Below the pieces are notes generated by a model. That model saw nothing but the letters and a program-made list of their open reading frames with translations, had not been told where the DNA came from and did no database searches. A program made the position numbers and the translations under genes. Shown here piece by piece: positions 1-10,849 of a stretch of 22,194 nucleotides of DNA (the first letter of the stretch is position 1; each line of letters opens with the position of its first letter). Origin of the DNA: a virus; the IMG/VR virus record IMGVR_UViG_3300023109_000163, positions 1-22,194 of that record; one strand, written 5' to 3'.

Positions 1-295
1 TTTCGCCCCTACCTTTACATAGGTATAGTATTTCTCTTGTAAATTTATCTTCGCCTAGGTTAGCAACATCTGCGTTTAGTCTGTCACTGGATCCCCAGTA
101 AGTTCGCCAATCGCTTTCTTTGGTGCCTCGTCTTTTATTTTTTTTGCCTTTTAGAGGTGGCTTAGTAGTTTTAAATTTTGCTAGTTTCTTGCCTATGTAT
201 TTTTGATCTGTAGTGGTATTGGTAATAAGATAGACAAAACCTTCGTATTCGTCTGGTATGTTATCTATCTCTTTGCCTTGATAAGTCCACTTCAT
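1..295 (-). CDS. GIY-YIG nuclease-like protein (C-terminus off the left edge)
   Basis: The first 98 codons are visible, from an ATG at 295-293 reading leftward with no stop before the window edge. Near residues 19-37 the protein has GFVYLI followed by KYIGKK, the two strands that name the GIY-YIG nuclease fold. Further on come YWGSSDRL and a FTREILYLC segment, spaced as in phage and homing GIY-YIG enzymes. The region between them is rich in Lys/Arg (around residues 38-62), suitable for DNA contact. The catalytic Glu expected later in the fold lies outside the window or cannot be placed. It sits 11 bp after the 69-residue gene and so is probably the distal gene of the gp47-gp46 operon. There is no good Shine-Dalgarno sequence. 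It could be a free-standing homing endonuclease or a repair/recombination nuclease; the sequence does not decide this. Confidence 0.72.
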   Translation of the reverse strand, partial: MKWTYQGKEIDNIPDEYEGFVYLITNTTTDQKYIGKKLAKFKTTKPPLKGKKNKRRGTKESDWRTYWGSSDRLNADVANLGEDKFTREILYLCKGRGE

Positions 296-3319: not shown

Positions 3320-3348
3320 ATAATACTATCTTTATATCTTAAAGTCAA
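3320..3348 (-). promoter_or_regulatory. Candidate host sigma70-type promoter for gp47-gp46
   Basis: On the minus strand, TTGACT (3348-3343) is followed after exactly 17 bp by TATTAT (3325-3320), each one base from the sigma70 consensus. The -35 box lies across the gp55 stop codon, so the promoter uses the end of gp55 and the very A/T-rich gap. The expected RNA start would be near 3313, just upstream of the gp47 ribosome-binding site at 3304-3301, giving a short leader of about 20 bases. This would let the nuclease genes be read early by the host polymerase. Confidence 0.6.
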
Positions 3349-4181: not shown

Positions 4182-4187
4182 ATATTT

Positions 4188-4191
4188 CTCC
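4188..4191 (-). promoter_or_regulatory. Ribosome-binding site of gp55
   Basis: GGAG on the minus strand, 6 bases before the gp55 ATG (4181-4179). It supports this start over the internal Met at residue 12. Confidence 0.6.
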
Positions 4192-4204
4192 AGGTTATTA
4201 CTCT

Positions 4205-4233
4205 ATTATAAACTACATACTTAATTCTGTCAA
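4205..4233 (-). promoter_or_regulatory. Perfect-consensus sigma70 promoter of gp55
   Basis: On the minus strand, TTGACA (4233-4228) and TATAAT (4210-4205) are both exact matches to the sigma70 consensus, separated by exactly 17 bp. The predicted RNA start is near 4198, giving a leader of about 17 bases that contains the gp55 GGAG site. This should be a strong promoter for unmodified host RNA polymerase, so gp55 and probably the genes after it would be early or middle genes. The -35 element is adjacent to, and overlaps by one base in the 8-mer definition, the late-like motif on the opposite strand. Confidence 0.8.
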
Positions 4234-4240
4234 CTAAATA
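4233..4240 (+). promoter_or_regulatory. T4-late-type promoter motif ahead of the baseplate operon
   Basis: ACTAAATA on the plus strand resembles the T4 late -10 element TATAAATA, with six of eight bases matching and the TAAATA core intact. It lies 19 bp before the ATG of the first baseplate gene, with a strong AGGAG site (4246-4250) between. As expected for gp55-dependent promoters, no -35 box is needed. RNA would start close to 4246, leaving a very short leader, which weakens the call somewhat. Confidence 0.5.
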
Positions 4241-4245
4241 CTTAT

Positions 4246-4250
4246 AGGAG
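4246..4250 (+). promoter_or_regulatory. Ribosome-binding site of the gp48/54-like gene
   Basis: AGGAG with 9 bases to the ATG at 4260. It sits in the 78-bp divergent intergenic region and fixes the start of the first plus-strand gene. Confidence 0.65.
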
Positions 4251-4259
4251 ATTACCAAA

Positions 4260-5114
4260 ATGGCATTAAAGAAAATAATACAATCAAATGTAGAAAACCT
4301 CCAAAGCTCTGTTGAAAATACAGCTAAAGGTTTAGGAAGCAAACTTGCTAACTCTGCACTTGATGCTATAGGCCCTGCTGGTGGCCTATTAAAAGCACTA
4401 CTAAATGGCCCTAGTTCGATGCCTGCACTAAAAACACAGACAGTTGCTAGAGAGCCTAGTGGCAGTAACGACTGGCGTGTCAAATTAAGTTTGCCGCCGG
4501 GCTTTGTTGGAAAAGATGCTGGTACAATTTTTGATCCTTTAATAGAAACTAACGGATTAGTTTTTCCTTATACTCCTACAATATTAGTTCAACATACTGC
4601 CAACTATGATGCATTGCAGCCTGTACATAGTAATTATCCCTTTCCGCAATACCAAAACAGCCAAATTGAAGATATTGTTATTACTGGAGATTTTTTCTGC
4701 GAAAATGCAAAAGATGCACAGTATTGGACAGCAATGGTACACTACTTAAGAAGTATAACAAAAATGAATTACGGAACGGATGATAATTCCGGAGCACCTC
4801 CGCCCCTTGTAAAATTATCTGGTTACGGAGACTTTGTATTTCCAAAAGTTCCTGTTGCAATTAGAAACTTTACTGTTGACCTGCCTGCAGATGTTGATTA
4901 TATTAAAACAAAAGTTGAAGGTGATGTAGGAGTTGATGTTACAACTAGCGATCCGGGTACTGGCGATTTAGTTGGATGGGCACCAGCACAAAGTCAAGTT
5001 TCTGTTACTGTTACTCCGGTATTCTCAAGAGCAAAAGTATCACAGTTTAGTTTAGGTTCTTTTGTTAAAGGTGATTACTTAGGCGGCGGCGGAAATGGTG
5101 GAGGATTTATTTAA
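4260..5114 (+). CDS. 48: Baseplate tail-tube protein, gp48/gp54-like
   Basis: A 284-residue structural protein, first in the plus-strand operon. In T4, gp54 and gp48 sit on the baseplate hub and start the tail tube. The N-terminus (residues 1-60) looks like amphipathic helix followed by a Gly/Pro/Ala/Leu stretch. The middle (about 95-205) is a beta-rich domain with VFPYTPTILVQHTANYDAL and a FPQYQNSQIEDIVITGDFF segment, ending in the strand VAIRNFTVDLPADVDYI. The C-terminus has the strand QSQVSVTVTPVFSRAKVSQF (residues 244-263), which parallels the end of T4 gp48 (strand, then a Tyr/Leu-rich tail), and finishes in a Gly-rich tail. Assignment to gp48 rather than gp54 rests on my recollection of marine T4-like gene order (gp48 next to gp53) and is not certain. 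Its stop overlaps the gp53 start as TAATG. Confidence 0.66.
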   Translation: MALKKIIQSNVENLQSSVENTAKGLGSKLANSALDAIGPAGGLLKALLNGPSSMPALKTQTVAREPSGSNDWRVKLSLPPGFVGKDAGTIFDPLIETNGLVFPYTPTILVQHTANYDALQPVHSNYPFPQYQNSQIEDIVITGDFFCENAKDAQYWTAMVHYLRSITKMNYGTDDNSGAPPPLVKLSGYGDFVFPKVPVAIRNFTVDLPADVDYIKTKVEGDVGVDVTTSDPGTGDLVGWAPAQSQVSVTVTPVFSRAKVSQFSLGSFVKGDYLGGGGNGGGFI

Positions 5115-5413
5115 TGTCATATTCATCGCAAAGCCCCTGGGGAAGAACAAAAATACAAAATAATCAATACTTGGATGTGTTAACAATTCGTCCAGTGCCT
5201 AAGCAAGATGACGATGTGTTGTATGAAGTACAACCACAGTTTACACATAGACCCGACTTATTAGCTTATTCAGTTTACGGAACATCAAAACTTTGGTGGG
5301 TCTTTGCACAACGAAATATGGACATATTAAAAGATCCTGTATTTGACTTAGTTGCTGGTATAAAAATATATTTGCCAAAGCAAGATCAATTACAAAAATT
5401 TTTAGGATACTAA
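5114..5413 (+). CDS. 53: gp53 baseplate wedge protein
   Basis: This 99-residue protein has the compact signature of the gp53 family: an N-terminal PWGRTKI, a central RPDLLAYSVYGTSKLWWVFA (residues 47-66), then DPVFDLVAGIKIYLP (74-88), which is the LysM-like strand pattern described for gp53. gp53 joins neighbouring wedges around the hub. The protein is about half the length of T4 gp53 (196 residues), so only the conserved core is present. It overlaps the gp48/54-like gene by TAATG and ends one base before the next ATG. Confidence 0.85.
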   Translation: MSYSSQSPWGRTKIQNNQYLDVLTIRPVPKQDDDVLYEVQPQFTHRPDLLAYSVYGTSKLWWVFAQRNMDILKDPVFDLVAGIKIYLPKQDQLQKFLGY

Positions 5414-5414
5414 A

Positions 5415-7856
5415 ATGGCAATCCCTAGAGCAACAAAAATAGCCCAGCAAAGTCTTGAACGTGCTAAAGGCGTTGGAGAATCTCTATTATCAGATCCGTC
5501 TGCGCAAGCTGAAAACTTACTTCGTCAAGGATCTAATGCTCTTAATAGTGGTATTAAAGTTATTGACAGTTTTAAAGATAGTGTTGAAGATGTCTTGACC
5601 GGTTCAACAATTGATGTTGCTAATAAGATAGGTTTGTCAGCACCATCATTTGAACAAGCAGCCGAAGTAATAACACAAACAGCACTAAATCCAAATACAA
5701 TTTTAGGTTCTACTGATAATATATTAAAAAAATATGCGTCATATAACTATAACATAACCCTTGCTTGTTTAACTGTTAATGAATTAAATTTTCCTAACAC
5801 TACATACCGTGTCAAAGCACCTCAAGTAACAGTATTACGTTCGGGTGGTGGAGCTCCAGGAAAGGCACTAACAGCATACGAAACATCAGATGCACAATTA
5901 GAATATTTTATTGATGAGCTAAAGATGAATTCAGTTATGGCTCCGACAACAGCAACTAGAACATCTAATGCTACTACTTTTAGTTTTGTAGTTCACGAAC
6001 CATACAGTATGGGATTATTTCTACAAACATTAATGATTGCAGCACTAGATGCAGGACACGCTGATTACTTAAAAGCACCGTATGCTCTTATTATTGATTT
6101 TAAAGGGTTTGATGATAACGGAAACCCGCACAGTGTAGGAGCATTGGGTAGACGAGTATTTCCAATAAAAATTAATAAAATGGATTTTGATGTAAATGCT
6201 GGAGGCTCGGCATATAATATTTCAGCACACGCATTTAACGAAAGCGCATTAAGTAATATTGCACAGCATACTAAAAGTGATATAAAAATTAGTGGCGACA
6301 GTGTTCTTGAATTATTACAAAAAGGTCCAAATAGTTTGACTACTATTATGAACAAGCGTATAAGAGAAAAAGCCGAAGGAGAACCTGCTCCAATAAACAA
6401 AGATGAATATGTTATTATGTTTCCAAAAGAACTAACATCTAGTTTAGGATTAGACACTCAAACCGATAGTGGTACTAGTGATAATGCAGCAATGACAGTA
6501 GACGAATTTTATAGAAAGACGCAAGGTTTACTAAATTATAATGAGCTTCCAAAAGCTGGACAAGAAGAAGTACAAACTGCTTTTGATCAGTATAAAGAAT
6601 TATATGTAACTAACAATAATGTAGCTTCGGCTGTTAGAAGAATTGCAGAAAGTTCTGAATTAGCCAATCCAATTGGCAAGGGAACTATTGCAAAGTCAAT
6701 GGTTGAAGGAGGCAATACCCCGTTTGGTATCGAAGCATACACAAAAAACGAAAATGATGTATATGTTTCAGAAAAAGTTACAATCTCAAATGATTTTAGA
6801 GAATTTACATTTCCGCTAGGTACTAGTGTTGAACAAATTATCGAAGAAATAGTCATCTTAAGTTCTTATGGTAAATCTGCTGCAACAGAATTTACTCCAG
6901 ATTCAGACGGGATGATAAACTGGTTTAGAATTCATACTCAAACATTCTTAGTACCTGATGAACAAGTAAGGAGTGTAAGCGGTGAAAATCCAAAAGTATT
7001 TGTATATGCTGTTGTTCCTTATAAAGTTCATTCGTCAGTCTTTAATAATGCTTCACAACCATCAGTTGGTATTGAAAAACGTAAACAGCAGGCAGCTAAA
7101 ACATATGATTATATCTATACAGGAAAAAACGACGATATACTCGACTTTGAAATTAATTTTAATAATGCATTTTATAAAGCATTAAACACAAATATAAACG
7201 GTAGTGGTGATTCTAGACTTTTAGCAAAAAACGGATCAAATGGGTCGACTGAAGAATCTTATAATGCATCTGAAGGAAATTCTGAAGGCAGTGGATTTTC
7301 TAATCCTAATGTGTCTGACGTAGGAGATGCTAACGGCACAGGTAAAGGAGGAGGATCGACAATGGATTCTCCAGCAGTTCAGGTTGCTAGAATGTTTAAC
7401 GAAGCAATAGTAAATAATAATGTTGATATGATTGTTATGGATCTTACTGTTCTTGGAGATCCTTACTACCTAGCAGATAGTGGAGTTGGAAATTATAGCT
7501 CACCAGTTGCAGCGAAAGCATACACTGCTGACGGGTCAATGGATTATCAAAGAAGTGAAGTTGAAGTGAATGTTAATTTCCGTACACCTATTGATTATAA
7601 CGGCGAAACAGGATCAATGATATTCCCACAGGATACTATTCCAGTAAAGGCATTTAGTGGATTATACAAAGTAAACACTGTTGAAAACAGTTTTAGTGGC
7701 GGAAAATTTACACAGGTGTTAAGTATGAACAGAAGACCAAAACAAGACGACTCACCAATTACTGGACTATCTAGTGATCCGGGTGCAGTAAAGTCGACAG
7801 AAAACACCGATGCAGGCAAGGAACAAATTACAAATAATACAGGGAATCCGCAGTAA
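5415..7856 (+). CDS. Large baseplate hub-like structural protein
   Basis: An 813-residue protein between gp53 and gp5. Residues 1-65 are Ala/Gln/Ser-rich and helical. Residues about 110-290 form a beta-rich domain (with LNFPNTTYRVKAPQVTVLRS and the FVVHEPYSMGLFLQTLMIAA segment), resembling tube-like folds used in baseplate hubs. Residues about 595-650 are a flexible Gly/Ser/Asn linker. The last part (about 655-780) contains VMDLTVLGDPYYLADSG, VNFRTPIDYN, VKAFSGLYKV and GGKFTQVLSMNRR, a pattern I associate with contractile-tail hub proteins (gp27/gpD/gp44-like). No catalytic motif is evident. T4 gp27 has 391 residues, so this would be an enlarged form, and its place directly before gp5, the natural partner of gp27, fits. 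AGGA at 5404-5407 lies 7 bases before the ATG; the stop overlaps the gp5 start as TAATG. The gp27 role is an inference. Confidence 0.55.
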   Translation: MAIPRATKIAQQSLERAKGVGESLLSDPSAQAENLLRQGSNALNSGIKVIDSFKDSVEDVLTGSTIDVANKIGLSAPSFEQAAEVITQTALNPNTILGSTDNILKKYASYNYNITLACLTVNELNFPNTTYRVKAPQVTVLRSGGGAPGKALTAYETSDAQLEYFIDELKMNSVMAPTTATRTSNATTFSFVVHEPYSMGLFLQTLMIAALDAGHADYLKAPYALIIDFKGFDDNGNPHSVGALGRRVFPIKINKMDFDVNAGGSAYNISAHAFNESALSNIAQHTKSDIKISGDSVLELLQKGPNSLTTIMNKRIREKAEGEPAPINKDEYVIMFPKELTSSLGLDTQTDSGTSDNAAMTVDEFYRKTQGLLNYNELPKAGQEEVQTAFDQYKELYVTNNNVASAVRRIAESSELANPIGKGTIAKSMVEGGNTPFGIEAYTKNENDVYVSEKVTISNDFREFTFPLGTSVEQIIEEIVILSSYGKSAATEFTPDSDGMINWFRIHTQTFLVPDEQVRSVSGENPKVFVYAVVPYKVHSSVFNNASQPSVGIEKRKQQAAKTYDYIYTGKNDDILDFEINFNNAFYKALNTNINGSGDSRLLAKNGSNGSTEESYNASEGNSEGSGFSNPNVSDVGDANGTGKGGGSTMDSPAVQVARMFNEAIVNNNVDMIVMDLTVLGDPYYLADSGVGNYSSPVAAKAYTADGSMDYQRSEVEVNVNFRTPIDYNGETGSMIFPQDTIPVKAFSGLYKVNTVENSFSGGKFTQVLSMNRRPKQDDSPITGLSSDPGAVKSTENTDAGKEQITNNTGNPQ

Positions 7857-10327
7857 TGGCAATTGATGGACGTTCAGCGAGAAAAACGCTAGTAATCAAT
7901 CCAGGGCCATATGAAGCGTTGGTTGTATCCTTGCTTGATCCAAAAAGAATGGGTGCAATACAAGTTGAACTATTAAAAAATAGCACTTCGGGTAATCAGC
8001 CCGAACGATCAGGACAAATTGTTACAGTACAATATATGAGTCCGTTTGCCGGAGTTACTCCAATTGACGGAACCACTAGTCAAGATGACTTTCAAGGAAC
8101 ACAGAAAAGTTACGGATTTTGGGCGATACCTCCTAGTGTAGGAACAAAGGTACTTGTTATGTTTGCAGAAGGTAACATAGCAAGGGGCTATTGGATAGGA
8201 TGTGTTCCAGACGTGTATCAAAATCATATGACACCAGATCCGTGGGCCGGCACTGAATTTAATAATACTGACAGTTCTAAAAAACTTCCTACAGGGGAGT
8301 ATAATAAAAGACTTTCGTCTGGCGTCGGAAACGATCCTTCAAAATATATTAAACCTGTTAATAATGATTTTTATACTATACTTGGAAGACAAGGTCTAGT
8401 AGATGACGATATTAGAGGTCCTGCTAATAGTACTAGCAGACGAAACTTACCTAGTAGTGTATTTGGTATTAGTACTCCAGGACCTCGAGACAAAAGAAAC
8501 GGAGCTCCTAAAAGTTCAGTTGGTCCAAAAGAGTATAGTACACAAACATTTACAAGTATACTAGGTGGTTCTAGTATTGTTATGGATGACGGCGATGAAC
8601 GTTTTTTAAGAAATAGTTTCGCCGGACAAGACGCAATGTTATATACTGATGTAGTTGCTGACGCTCAAGCAACCACCGGCATTAAGACACTACCTAAAGG
8701 TGAATCTTTTAGGATTAGAACACGCACAGGCCATCAAATTCTTCTACATAATTCAGAAGACTTAATTTATATTGGCAATGCAACAGGCAGTTCTTGGATA
8801 GAAATGACTGCCAACGGCAAAATTGATATCTATGCACAAGATAGTATTAGTATTAGGACTCAAAATGATCTTAATATAAGTGCTGATCGAGATATTAATA
8901 TGACTGCGGCACGTGATATTAACTATAATGCAGGTAGAGATTATAAACTTACTGTTGGTAATAACAGTGACTATAAAGTTGGCGGCAAACACAATATGGA
9001 GATTGGCGCTGATGAAAATCATTATGTTGGTGCATCACAGAAAATATTTGTTGGCGCTACTGGAGATTTAATTGTAACTGGTGCTCATACTATTACAAAT
9101 AACGCAACACTAGACATTAATACTAAAGGTAACAGAAAAGATACACAGGCAAATTTAGACTTAAACACTGGAGGATATAATTATTTCACAGCAGGCGGAA
9201 ATACAGATATTTTGAGTGGCGGCAATCATAACGAAACAGCCACTGAAATTCATATGAATGGTCCAGCAGCGACTGAAGCAGCAACGGCAGGAAGTGCAGC
9301 TCAAGCACAAGTTGCAGCCCCTGCTCTGTGGCCTGTGCGTGTTCCAGTACACGAGCCGTGGCTAGGCCACGAGCATTTAGACCCTGGAACATTTACTCCA
9401 GGATTTACACAAGCAAGCGGTTCTCCGAGTCCAGCATTAAGAGAATCTACACCGTTACTAAGTAGCGATAGTGACTTAACTACAAGTGCTGGCGCTGCAA
9501 GCGGCGCAACAGTTACAGCGGCAAATACAAACGGTCCGCAGACAGTTGTTCCTGGTCAAGTAGGACCTACAGGAGATCAGCCAGCTAAACCAGTTGAAGT
9601 TACATTATTACAACAATTCTTCTTAAATGAATTAATTAAGAAAATTGGATTAGATCCAGCAAATGCACTTAAATCAGCAGATCCTAATAGACTTGCTGAA
9701 GGAGAAACTCCAGGTAACGCAGAAGCACTTGGTATGGCAATGGCACAGATACAAGCAGAATGTGGATTCAAACCAAGAAGTGAAAACTTAAATTATAGAG
9801 CAAGTACATTACGTAGAGTATTCCCAACGCGAGTTAAAACAGATGCGTTTGCACAAGAACTTGCAGCAGCAGGTCCTGCTGCTATTGGTAACACTATTTA
9901 CGGAAATCGATACGGCAACGCACAAAACGAAGGCTACAAGTACCGTGGTAGAGGACTAATACAGTTAACGTTTAAAGGTAACTACGAAACCTACGGTCCA
10001 AAAGCAGGACATCCTGAAATTGTACAAAATCCTGACTTAGTTAATGATCCAGAAATTGCTGTAAGAATTGCTTGTGCATATATTCAATCCAAAAGTGTAA
10101 CTTGGACTAGTTACGACTTTGGTGCTTTAGGACAGCAGTTCCGCAGAGCAGTTGGATATGCCGATCAAGGCGGCAAAGAAACTGCTAATCGTATTGGTTT
10201 AGGAAGAGGGTTTGCAAGCAAAATTATAACTGGCGACTTAACTCCTGTAGCAAGTATTACAACAGAACCAGCAGGAACAAACATTGAAGCAGGTAATCGT
10301 GTAGATCCTGCGGCAGGTCCGCAATAG
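7856..10327 (+). CDS. 5: gp5 baseplate spike with OB-fold, octad needle and C-terminal GH19 domain
   Basis: An 823-residue tail spike. Residues about 15-120 are the gp5/VgrG-type OB-fold, with the typical GFWAIPPSVGTKVLVMFAEG and RGYWIGCVPD. Residues 321-464 fall into strict octapeptide repeats, the trimeric beta-helix needle of gp5. Residues about 465-580 form an Ala/Pro/Thr/Ser-rich linker containing VPVHEPWLGHEHLDPGTF. Residues about 582-795 match glycoside hydrolase family 19 (chitinase-fold phage endolysins): MAQIQAECGF with E635, SENLNYRASTLRRVFPTR with E643, then YGNRYGNAQNEGYKYRGRGL and IQLTFKGNYETYG. The Glu pair probably cleaves peptidoglycan during tail penetration. In T4 gp5 the muralytic domain is a GH24 lysozyme between OB-fold and needle. 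Here it is a different family and lies beyond the needle. An AGGGAA site precedes the TAATG start. Confidence 0.9.
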   Translation: MAIDGRSARKTLVINPGPYEALVVSLLDPKRMGAIQVELLKNSTSGNQPERSGQIVTVQYMSPFAGVTPIDGTTSQDDFQGTQKSYGFWAIPPSVGTKVLVMFAEGNIARGYWIGCVPDVYQNHMTPDPWAGTEFNNTDSSKKLPTGEYNKRLSSGVGNDPSKYIKPVNNDFYTILGRQGLVDDDIRGPANSTSRRNLPSSVFGISTPGPRDKRNGAPKSSVGPKEYSTQTFTSILGGSSIVMDDGDERFLRNSFAGQDAMLYTDVVADAQATTGIKTLPKGESFRIRTRTGHQILLHNSEDLIYIGNATGSSWIEMTANGKIDIYAQDSISIRTQNDLNISADRDINMTAARDINYNAGRDYKLTVGNNSDYKVGGKHNMEIGADENHYVGASQKIFVGATGDLIVTGAHTITNNATLDINTKGNRKDTQANLDLNTGGYNYFTAGGNTDILSGGNHNETATEIHMNGPAATEAATAGSAAQAQVAAPALWPVRVPVHEPWLGHEHLDPGTFTPGFTQASGSPSPALRESTPLLSSDSDLTTSAGAASGATVTAANTNGPQTVVPGQVGPTGDQPAKPVEVTLLQQFFLNELIKKIGLDPANALKSADPNRLAEGETPGNAEALGMAMAQIQAECGFKPRSENLNYRASTLRRVFPTRVKTDAFAQELAAAGPAAIGNTIYGNRYGNAQNEGYKYRGRGLIQLTFKGNYETYGPKAGHPEIVQNPDLVNDPEIAVRIACAYIQSKSVTWTSYDFGALGQQFRRAVGYADQGGKETANRIGLGRGFASKIITGDLTPVASITTEPAGTNIEAGNRVDPAAGPQ
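8816..9247 (+). repeat. Eighteen octapeptide repeats of the gp5 needle
   Basis: The codons for gp5 residues 321-464 divide without gaps into 18 blocks of 8 residues (24 bases each), for example GKIDIYAQ, DSISIRTQ, NDLNISAD, RDINMTAA, RDINYNAG, GKHNMEIG and ASQKIFVG. Alternating hydrophobic positions and a frequent Gly at block ends are typical of the intertwined triple-stranded beta-helix of T4 gp5 and VgrG needles. One further block (residues 313-320) may belong to it. The repeats are visible at protein level; the DNA has diverged. Confidence 0.85.
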
Positions 10328-10331
10328 AGGG
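10327..10331 (+). promoter_or_regulatory. Ribosome-binding site of gp25
   Basis: GAGGG beginning at the last base of the gp5 stop codon, 10 bases before the ATG at 10342. It supports the ATG chosen for gp25. Confidence 0.5.
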
Positions 10332-10341
10332 TAAATACGTT

Positions 10342-10788: not shown

Positions 10789-10849
10789 AGAATTATATAC
10801 GCACTTATCTAATCTTAATAAATACTGTTACACATAAAGGAAAGCAAGT
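10789..10849 (+). promoter_or_regulatory. gp25-gp6 gap with T4-late-type promoter motif and ribosome-binding site
   Basis: This 61-bp gap is the only sizeable one inside the plus-strand operon. It holds AATAAATA at 10817-10824, seven of eight bases of the T4 late element TATAAATA, and AAGGAA (10837-10842) 7 bases before the gp6 ATG. RNA would start near 10830. This suggests extra late transcription of gp6 and the giant protein gene. No hairpin terminator is evident. Confidence 0.55.

Follow-up and report, generated by a model that had tools for sequence, protein, structure and literature searches.

T4-type phages are usually considered to pass from early to late transcription by means of gp55, gp33 and the replication clamp. 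In the DNA analysed here, a gene for the late sigma factor gp55 and a baseplate operon diverge from an intergenic region of 78 bp. The DNA is a 22 kb fragment from an uncultured virus record (IMG/VR, IMGVR_UViG_3300023109_000163), and its whole length of 22,194 nt is referred to below as the window.

Gene layout and collection of relatives

The coordinates of the features are given in Table 1. Rightward from 4260, the operon encodes a virion structural protein, a gp53-like wedge, a gp5-like hub/lysozyme, a gp25-like wedge and a gp6-like ORF in this order. Compared with T4 gp55 (185 aa), the gp55 of the window (278 aa) has about 115 extra residues, which separate a T4-like N-terminal segment from sigma region 2 and are common to jumbo phages, e.g., PA5oct and RaK2. 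That this extra domain may read the dyad described below was considered; its model was poor (pLDDT 60.6) and gave no fold match. The C-terminal part of the gp5-like hub protein (7856-10327, plus strand) matches endolysin/glycoside hydrolase 19 families, and a SegE-type GIY-YIG endonuclease is encoded at 2-295 (minus strand), downstream of gp46.

Nucleotide BLAST of the promoter region against phage records gave no match. Relatives were collected by two gp55 scans, which yielded 106 distinct upstream regions that were long enough.

Table 1. Features of the window around the gp55 locus and the gp6-like gene
Feature	Position	Strand	Remarks
Separate sigma70 promoter before gp47, TTGACT-17-TATTAT	3320..3348	-	Internal control: without conserved spacer, without late motif
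gp55, late sigma factor, 278 aa	3345..4181	-	phrog_12791 'sigma factor for late transcription' 5e-80; BLASTP vs T4 gp55 2e-09; PDB 7d7c
gp47, gp46		-	Together with gp55 on minus strand
Ribosome-binding site GGAG, gp55	4188..4191	-	From sequence
-10 box TATAAT	4205..4210	-	TATAAT in 75/77 relatives; predicted RNA start ~4198
Upstream dyad element TATAAACTACATACTTAA	4207..4224	+	Over leftward -10 and spacer, 9 bp before octamer; profile and register match those at gp6
-35 box TTGACA	4228..4233	-	12/12 with -10; TTGAC[AT] in 76/77 relatives
T4-late-type octamer ACTAAATA	4233..4240	+	-13 to -6 of predicted rightward promoter; predicted RNA start ~4246
Ribosome-binding site AGGAGA, rightward operon	4247..4252	+	From sequence
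Virion structural protein, operon gene 1	4260..5114	+	phrog_12050
gp53-like baseplate wedge	5114..5413	+	phrog_7145 1e-24
Second two-part late promoter (predicted), before gp6-like gene, TACGCACTTA-N9-AATAAATA	10798..10824	+	

Predicted leftward and rightward promoters

An exact-consensus host promoter facing gp55 had been proposed, and the predicted promoter was present as described: TTGACA and TATAAT with a 17-bp spacer (16-18 bp in sigma70 promoters) make a 12/12 match, the best and the sole such site among 89 promoter-like sites in the window, scored against the sigma70 consensus. From composition, or from a first-order simulation, 0.056 such sites would be expected per window. Bacterial genomes with the composite pattern described below were rejected as a clue to the host; the listed matches, mostly from Clostridia and other Firmicutes, look like chance. 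At one related locus (L074), the full composite is accompanied by a second sigma70 promoter closer to gp55.

The T4-late-like CTAAATA motif that the original prediction placed in front of the baseplate operon was recovered as ACTAAATA, 19 nt before the first gene of the operon, with a spacing to the start codon as for other late motifs. As in T4-type late promoters, TATAAATA or a close variant lies one helical turn before the predicted start, ahead of structural genes. CTAAATA itself was rejected as the motif that late promoters of the family generally carry: by intergenic motif counts in eight relatives, the general motif before structural genes is NATAAATA. The second position is A in the commonest form, where CTAAATA has T's neighbour C, and ACTAAATA is a less common variant, its C being conserved in 97 of the 103 upstream regions that bear the composite. 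With a gp55 homologue encoded alongside, gp55-polymerase is the candidate for recognition of the octamer. Both promoters are very likely to be real.

A late-like GGTAAATA at 10330-10337 (plus strand) stands merely 4-5 nt ahead of the gp25-like start codon in most relatives and, because this is too close for a normal leader, is perhaps part of a ribosome-binding or stop-codon context.

Conservation of the composite element

An alignment of related phages had been suggested as a check, and both motifs and their register proved to be conserved; the refuting outcome named for this comparison, lack of either motif in close relatives, did not arise. The composite pattern TATTTA(G)TTGAC-N18-TATAAT lies directly upstream of gp55 in 100/106 regions when applied strictly and in 103/106 with a relaxed -10. 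Mean pairwise identity over its 36 bp is 83%, vs 39% and 41% in the flanks; in gp55 itself, third positions of codons are 53% identical and fourfold sites 44%. Conservation of the composite is far above chance. Among the relatives, the -10 lies 19-65 nt from gp55 and the octamer 11-31 nt from the operon start; because these outward distances to both start codons vary, the composite alone is rigid.

Of 25 long contigs, 24 have a single copy of the 12-mer TATTTAGTTGAC and one has two: a first set of 10 had one copy each, and a second set of 15, several of them collected by means of gp6, had 16 copies in total. A scan of IMG/VR with the composite gave at least 80 loci; among the matches listed, 68 immediately precede gp55, and another 3 end inside gp55, in the part of its start that is visible. 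Judged from these contigs and the listed IMG/VR matches, the composite appears essentially specific to gp55. A late motif adjoins the -35 box in 74/77 gp55 promoters vs 0/40 gp47 promoters.

Dyad element in the spacer

The overlap of the two motifs was as claimed in that the octamer and the -35 box touch, sharing one base pair, but its extent had been understated, the spacer of the early promoter doubling as an upstream element of the predicted late promoter. Read rightward, the 17-bp spacer is the dyad ATTAAnTRCGYAnTTAAT, and its information content is 1.01 bits/column at gp55 vs 0.27 at the gp47 promoter of the same phages. Ahead of the gp6-like gene, 71 distinct relatives have a strongly conserved element, AATTAWnTACGCACTTW, whose spacing to the octamer is fixed, and comparison of the gp55 spacer profile with the gp6 late-promoter profile scored +6.6 at shift 0 and -16 or lower elsewhere. 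The window holds two copies of the element, at 4214 and 10798. The recognition elements of the predicted promoters overlap through the shared base pair and through the dyad over the spacer, so that the two promoters, as read from the DNA, are superimposed rather than merely touching. The conserved spacer was also considered as a general sigma70 feature, and this was rejected because it is absent at the gp47 promoter and because the dyad stays in place when the early promoter moves (see below).

In T4, no element preceding the late octamer is conserved (PMC2988020, PMC7892883), whereas at both the gp6 and gp55 sites the dyad lies at a fixed spacing, 9 bp upstream of the octamer; the rightward promoter is therefore read as a variant and not as a strict T4 late promoter. 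The position of the dyad near -29 was compared with MotA-type activation, and MotA_activ was found in 0/10 contigs by a search that had no positive control match. The sequence of the dyad differs from the MotA box.

A dyad-binding protein of the phage or host might be the real switch, activating the late promoter from near -29 and, from its place between -35 and -10, repressing gp55, with occlusion by gp55-polymerase secondary. The dyad symmetry of the gp6 element, centred 16 bp before the octamer, and the exact spacing common to the gp6 and gp55 sites point to such a protein, although at gp55 this symmetry cannot be fully separated from the sigma70 boxes. Further strong intergenic copies of the dyad lie near gp26-like hub, tape-measure and tail-tube genes, but most late promoters in the family are without it. 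The gp45 clamp (phrog_223 profile) was found in 0/9 contigs, with the T4 control positive, which would leave room for another activator; this absence is weak because the contigs are incomplete. As the protein is so far hypothetical, we regard this explanation as somewhat unlikely, and we think it unlikely that a putative dimeric dyad binder replaces the sliding clamp as activator of some late tail promoters and, at the same site, also represses early gp55. In that case one 36-bp element would pass transcription over to the phage sigma factor from host sigma70, with a built-in shut-off.

Near-perfect palindromes AACTACGTAGTT were also noted between genes at L134 (G002 9656) and L147 (G007 13630), the one at G007 13630 standing just after TATAAATA, where it has the look of a binding site placed behind a late promoter.

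Separated promoters and deeper relatives

The three remaining regions of the 106 (L237, L238 and L239), which form one clade by gp55 identity, have separated promoters. In this clade another sigma70 promoter sits some 55 bp closer to gp55 and the early boxes are lost at the old place, while the dyad, the 9-bp gap and the octamer, in the form TATAAATA, are retained. Because both stay when the early promoter moves, the dyad and the octamer are assigned to the rightward promoter.

This clade bears on another reading of CTAAATA, as an extended -35 or UP-like part of the gp55 promoter, with the operon read from elsewhere. The nearly constant attachment of the motif to the -35 box and the preference of the family's late motifs for A at the second position would fit such a role. 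It is made highly improbable by the gp47 promoters, which lack the motif, by the moved-promoter clade, in which the motif stays with the operon, by the occurrence of GCTAAATA in 12/71 gp6 late promoters, and by the usual distance of the motif from the operon start codon.

Gene order is unchanged in PA5oct, RaK2, 121Q, CBB, GAP32, Munch and others, with gp55-47-46 opposite structural protein-gp53. A TATAAATA-type motif directed toward the tail operon lies about 5 nt or less from a likely -35 in RaK2, 121Q, Hallingskeid, CBB, GAP32 and Munch; in PA5oct it is about 22 nt from the -35, and in a Vibrio phage the distance is about 20 nt, without a clear -35. Several -35 boxes of these deeper relatives are poor sigma70 matches, and Atu_ph07 retains TATTTAGTTGACAAATTAACTAC. 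The close spacing in RaK2, 121Q, CBB, GAP32 and Munch favours the dual-use reading given below, and the wider spacing in PA5oct and the Vibrio phage, which also has this gene order, speaks against it.

Genome compaction alone might have produced this arrangement, from unrelated promoters that overlapped in an ancestor and are hard to separate since every base does double duty, any interference being tolerated without a switch. Conservation of the register would then be expected without regulatory purpose, because the overlap of two working promoters itself fixes the register; intergenic regions are short and coding density is 97-99%; and L237-L239 persist with separated promoters, so that the coupling can be lost and is not essential. 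However, near-abutment recurs with different boxes and spacings in the RaK2, 121Q, CBB and Munch lineages, and escape is rare (3/106, in one clade) though it requires just a new sigma70 promoter. Compaction alone is accordingly a serious possibility that we do not favour.

Proposed mechanism

The preferred reading is that the locus is probably a dual-use intergenic promoter, in which sigma70 would act leftward early and gp55-polymerase rightward late on about 36 bp of shared DNA. Host sigma70-polymerase would transcribe gp55 early, and gp55-polymerase would later transcribe the baseplate operon by way of the dyad (centre near -29) and the octamer. With the dyad filling the sigma70 spacer and the octamer abutting the -35 box, bound polymerases would exclude each other and one promoter would be used at a time. 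The predicted starts point away from each other across 48 bp, so that two polymerases should not fit together; enzymes bound at such starts would collide. If both promoters work, this geometry makes their mutual exclusion very probable.

The regulatory consequences are put forward with more reserve. It is possible, though somewhat doubtful, that the late polymerase or the putative dyad binder lowers gp55 as the tail operon starts and that the early promoter silences the operon until gp55 accumulates; a meaningful negative feedback on gp55 is likewise suggested only tentatively. Through conserved DNA, production of the late sigma factor would be coupled with the first late operon, and an element absent in T4 is present in some late promoters. 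Because the motifs are exact, the switch and the putative binding protein could be tested on short templates. As a marker, the composite identifies with high specificity the gp55 locus of a large, widespread, mostly uncultured phage family.

Comparison with known systems

The locus shares with T4 a gp55 homologue and, ahead of structural genes, an octamer NATAAATA or ACTAAATA in the -10 position. In T4 and cyanophage S-RIM8, gp55 has same-strand surroundings, in T4 as part of a same-strand gene run, whereas here it lies opposite the tail operon.

Overlapping divergent switches of the pLS20 type generally rest on a separate repressor, whereas here the product of one promoter would be the specificity factor of the other. 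Divergent promoters sharing DNA are the point of likeness with plasmid pLS20 (PMC4207663). The late promoters of Aeh1 are CTAAATA (PMC1524935), with the same C at -12 in the octamer; the motif is general in Aeh1 and here mainly a variant at the gp55 overlap. The report on CBB (PMC5259590) describes late ATAAATA motifs and gp55 behind a TATA-type promoter, and gives gp33 and gp45 as not detected. CBB and GAP32 resemble the present family in their divergent gene order, in having ATAAATA ahead of structural genes and in the TATA-type promoter of their gp55 homologue. They differ in that their -35 is of the TGAAACG class and that the gp55 promoter and the late motif are reported separately, an overlap being unmentioned in the available part of that report. 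In RB49 and cyanophages (PMC2984593), early and late motifs likewise stand near each other ahead of a single gene, which both promoters drive in the same direction; here the promoters diverge, and one would make the sigma factor for the other. In the open-access literature, neither the composite nor the dyad was found to be described, no paper combined gp55, a late promoter and negative feedback, wider searches gave none among the titles listed, and nothing useful was found on PA5oct.

Two further arrangements were observed among the relatives. At L125, L137 and L142 (G001 105131, G002 78375 and G003 31432), GATAAATA or TATAAATA is followed by a recurring leader of about 115 nt ('ctattaatgca...'), which may contain a structured RNA or a small gene, and then by a very long ORF. 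At L152 and L155 (G009 49122 and G008 49021), CTAAATACAATG lies within a sigma70 spacer in the same direction, a different kind of early/late overlap.
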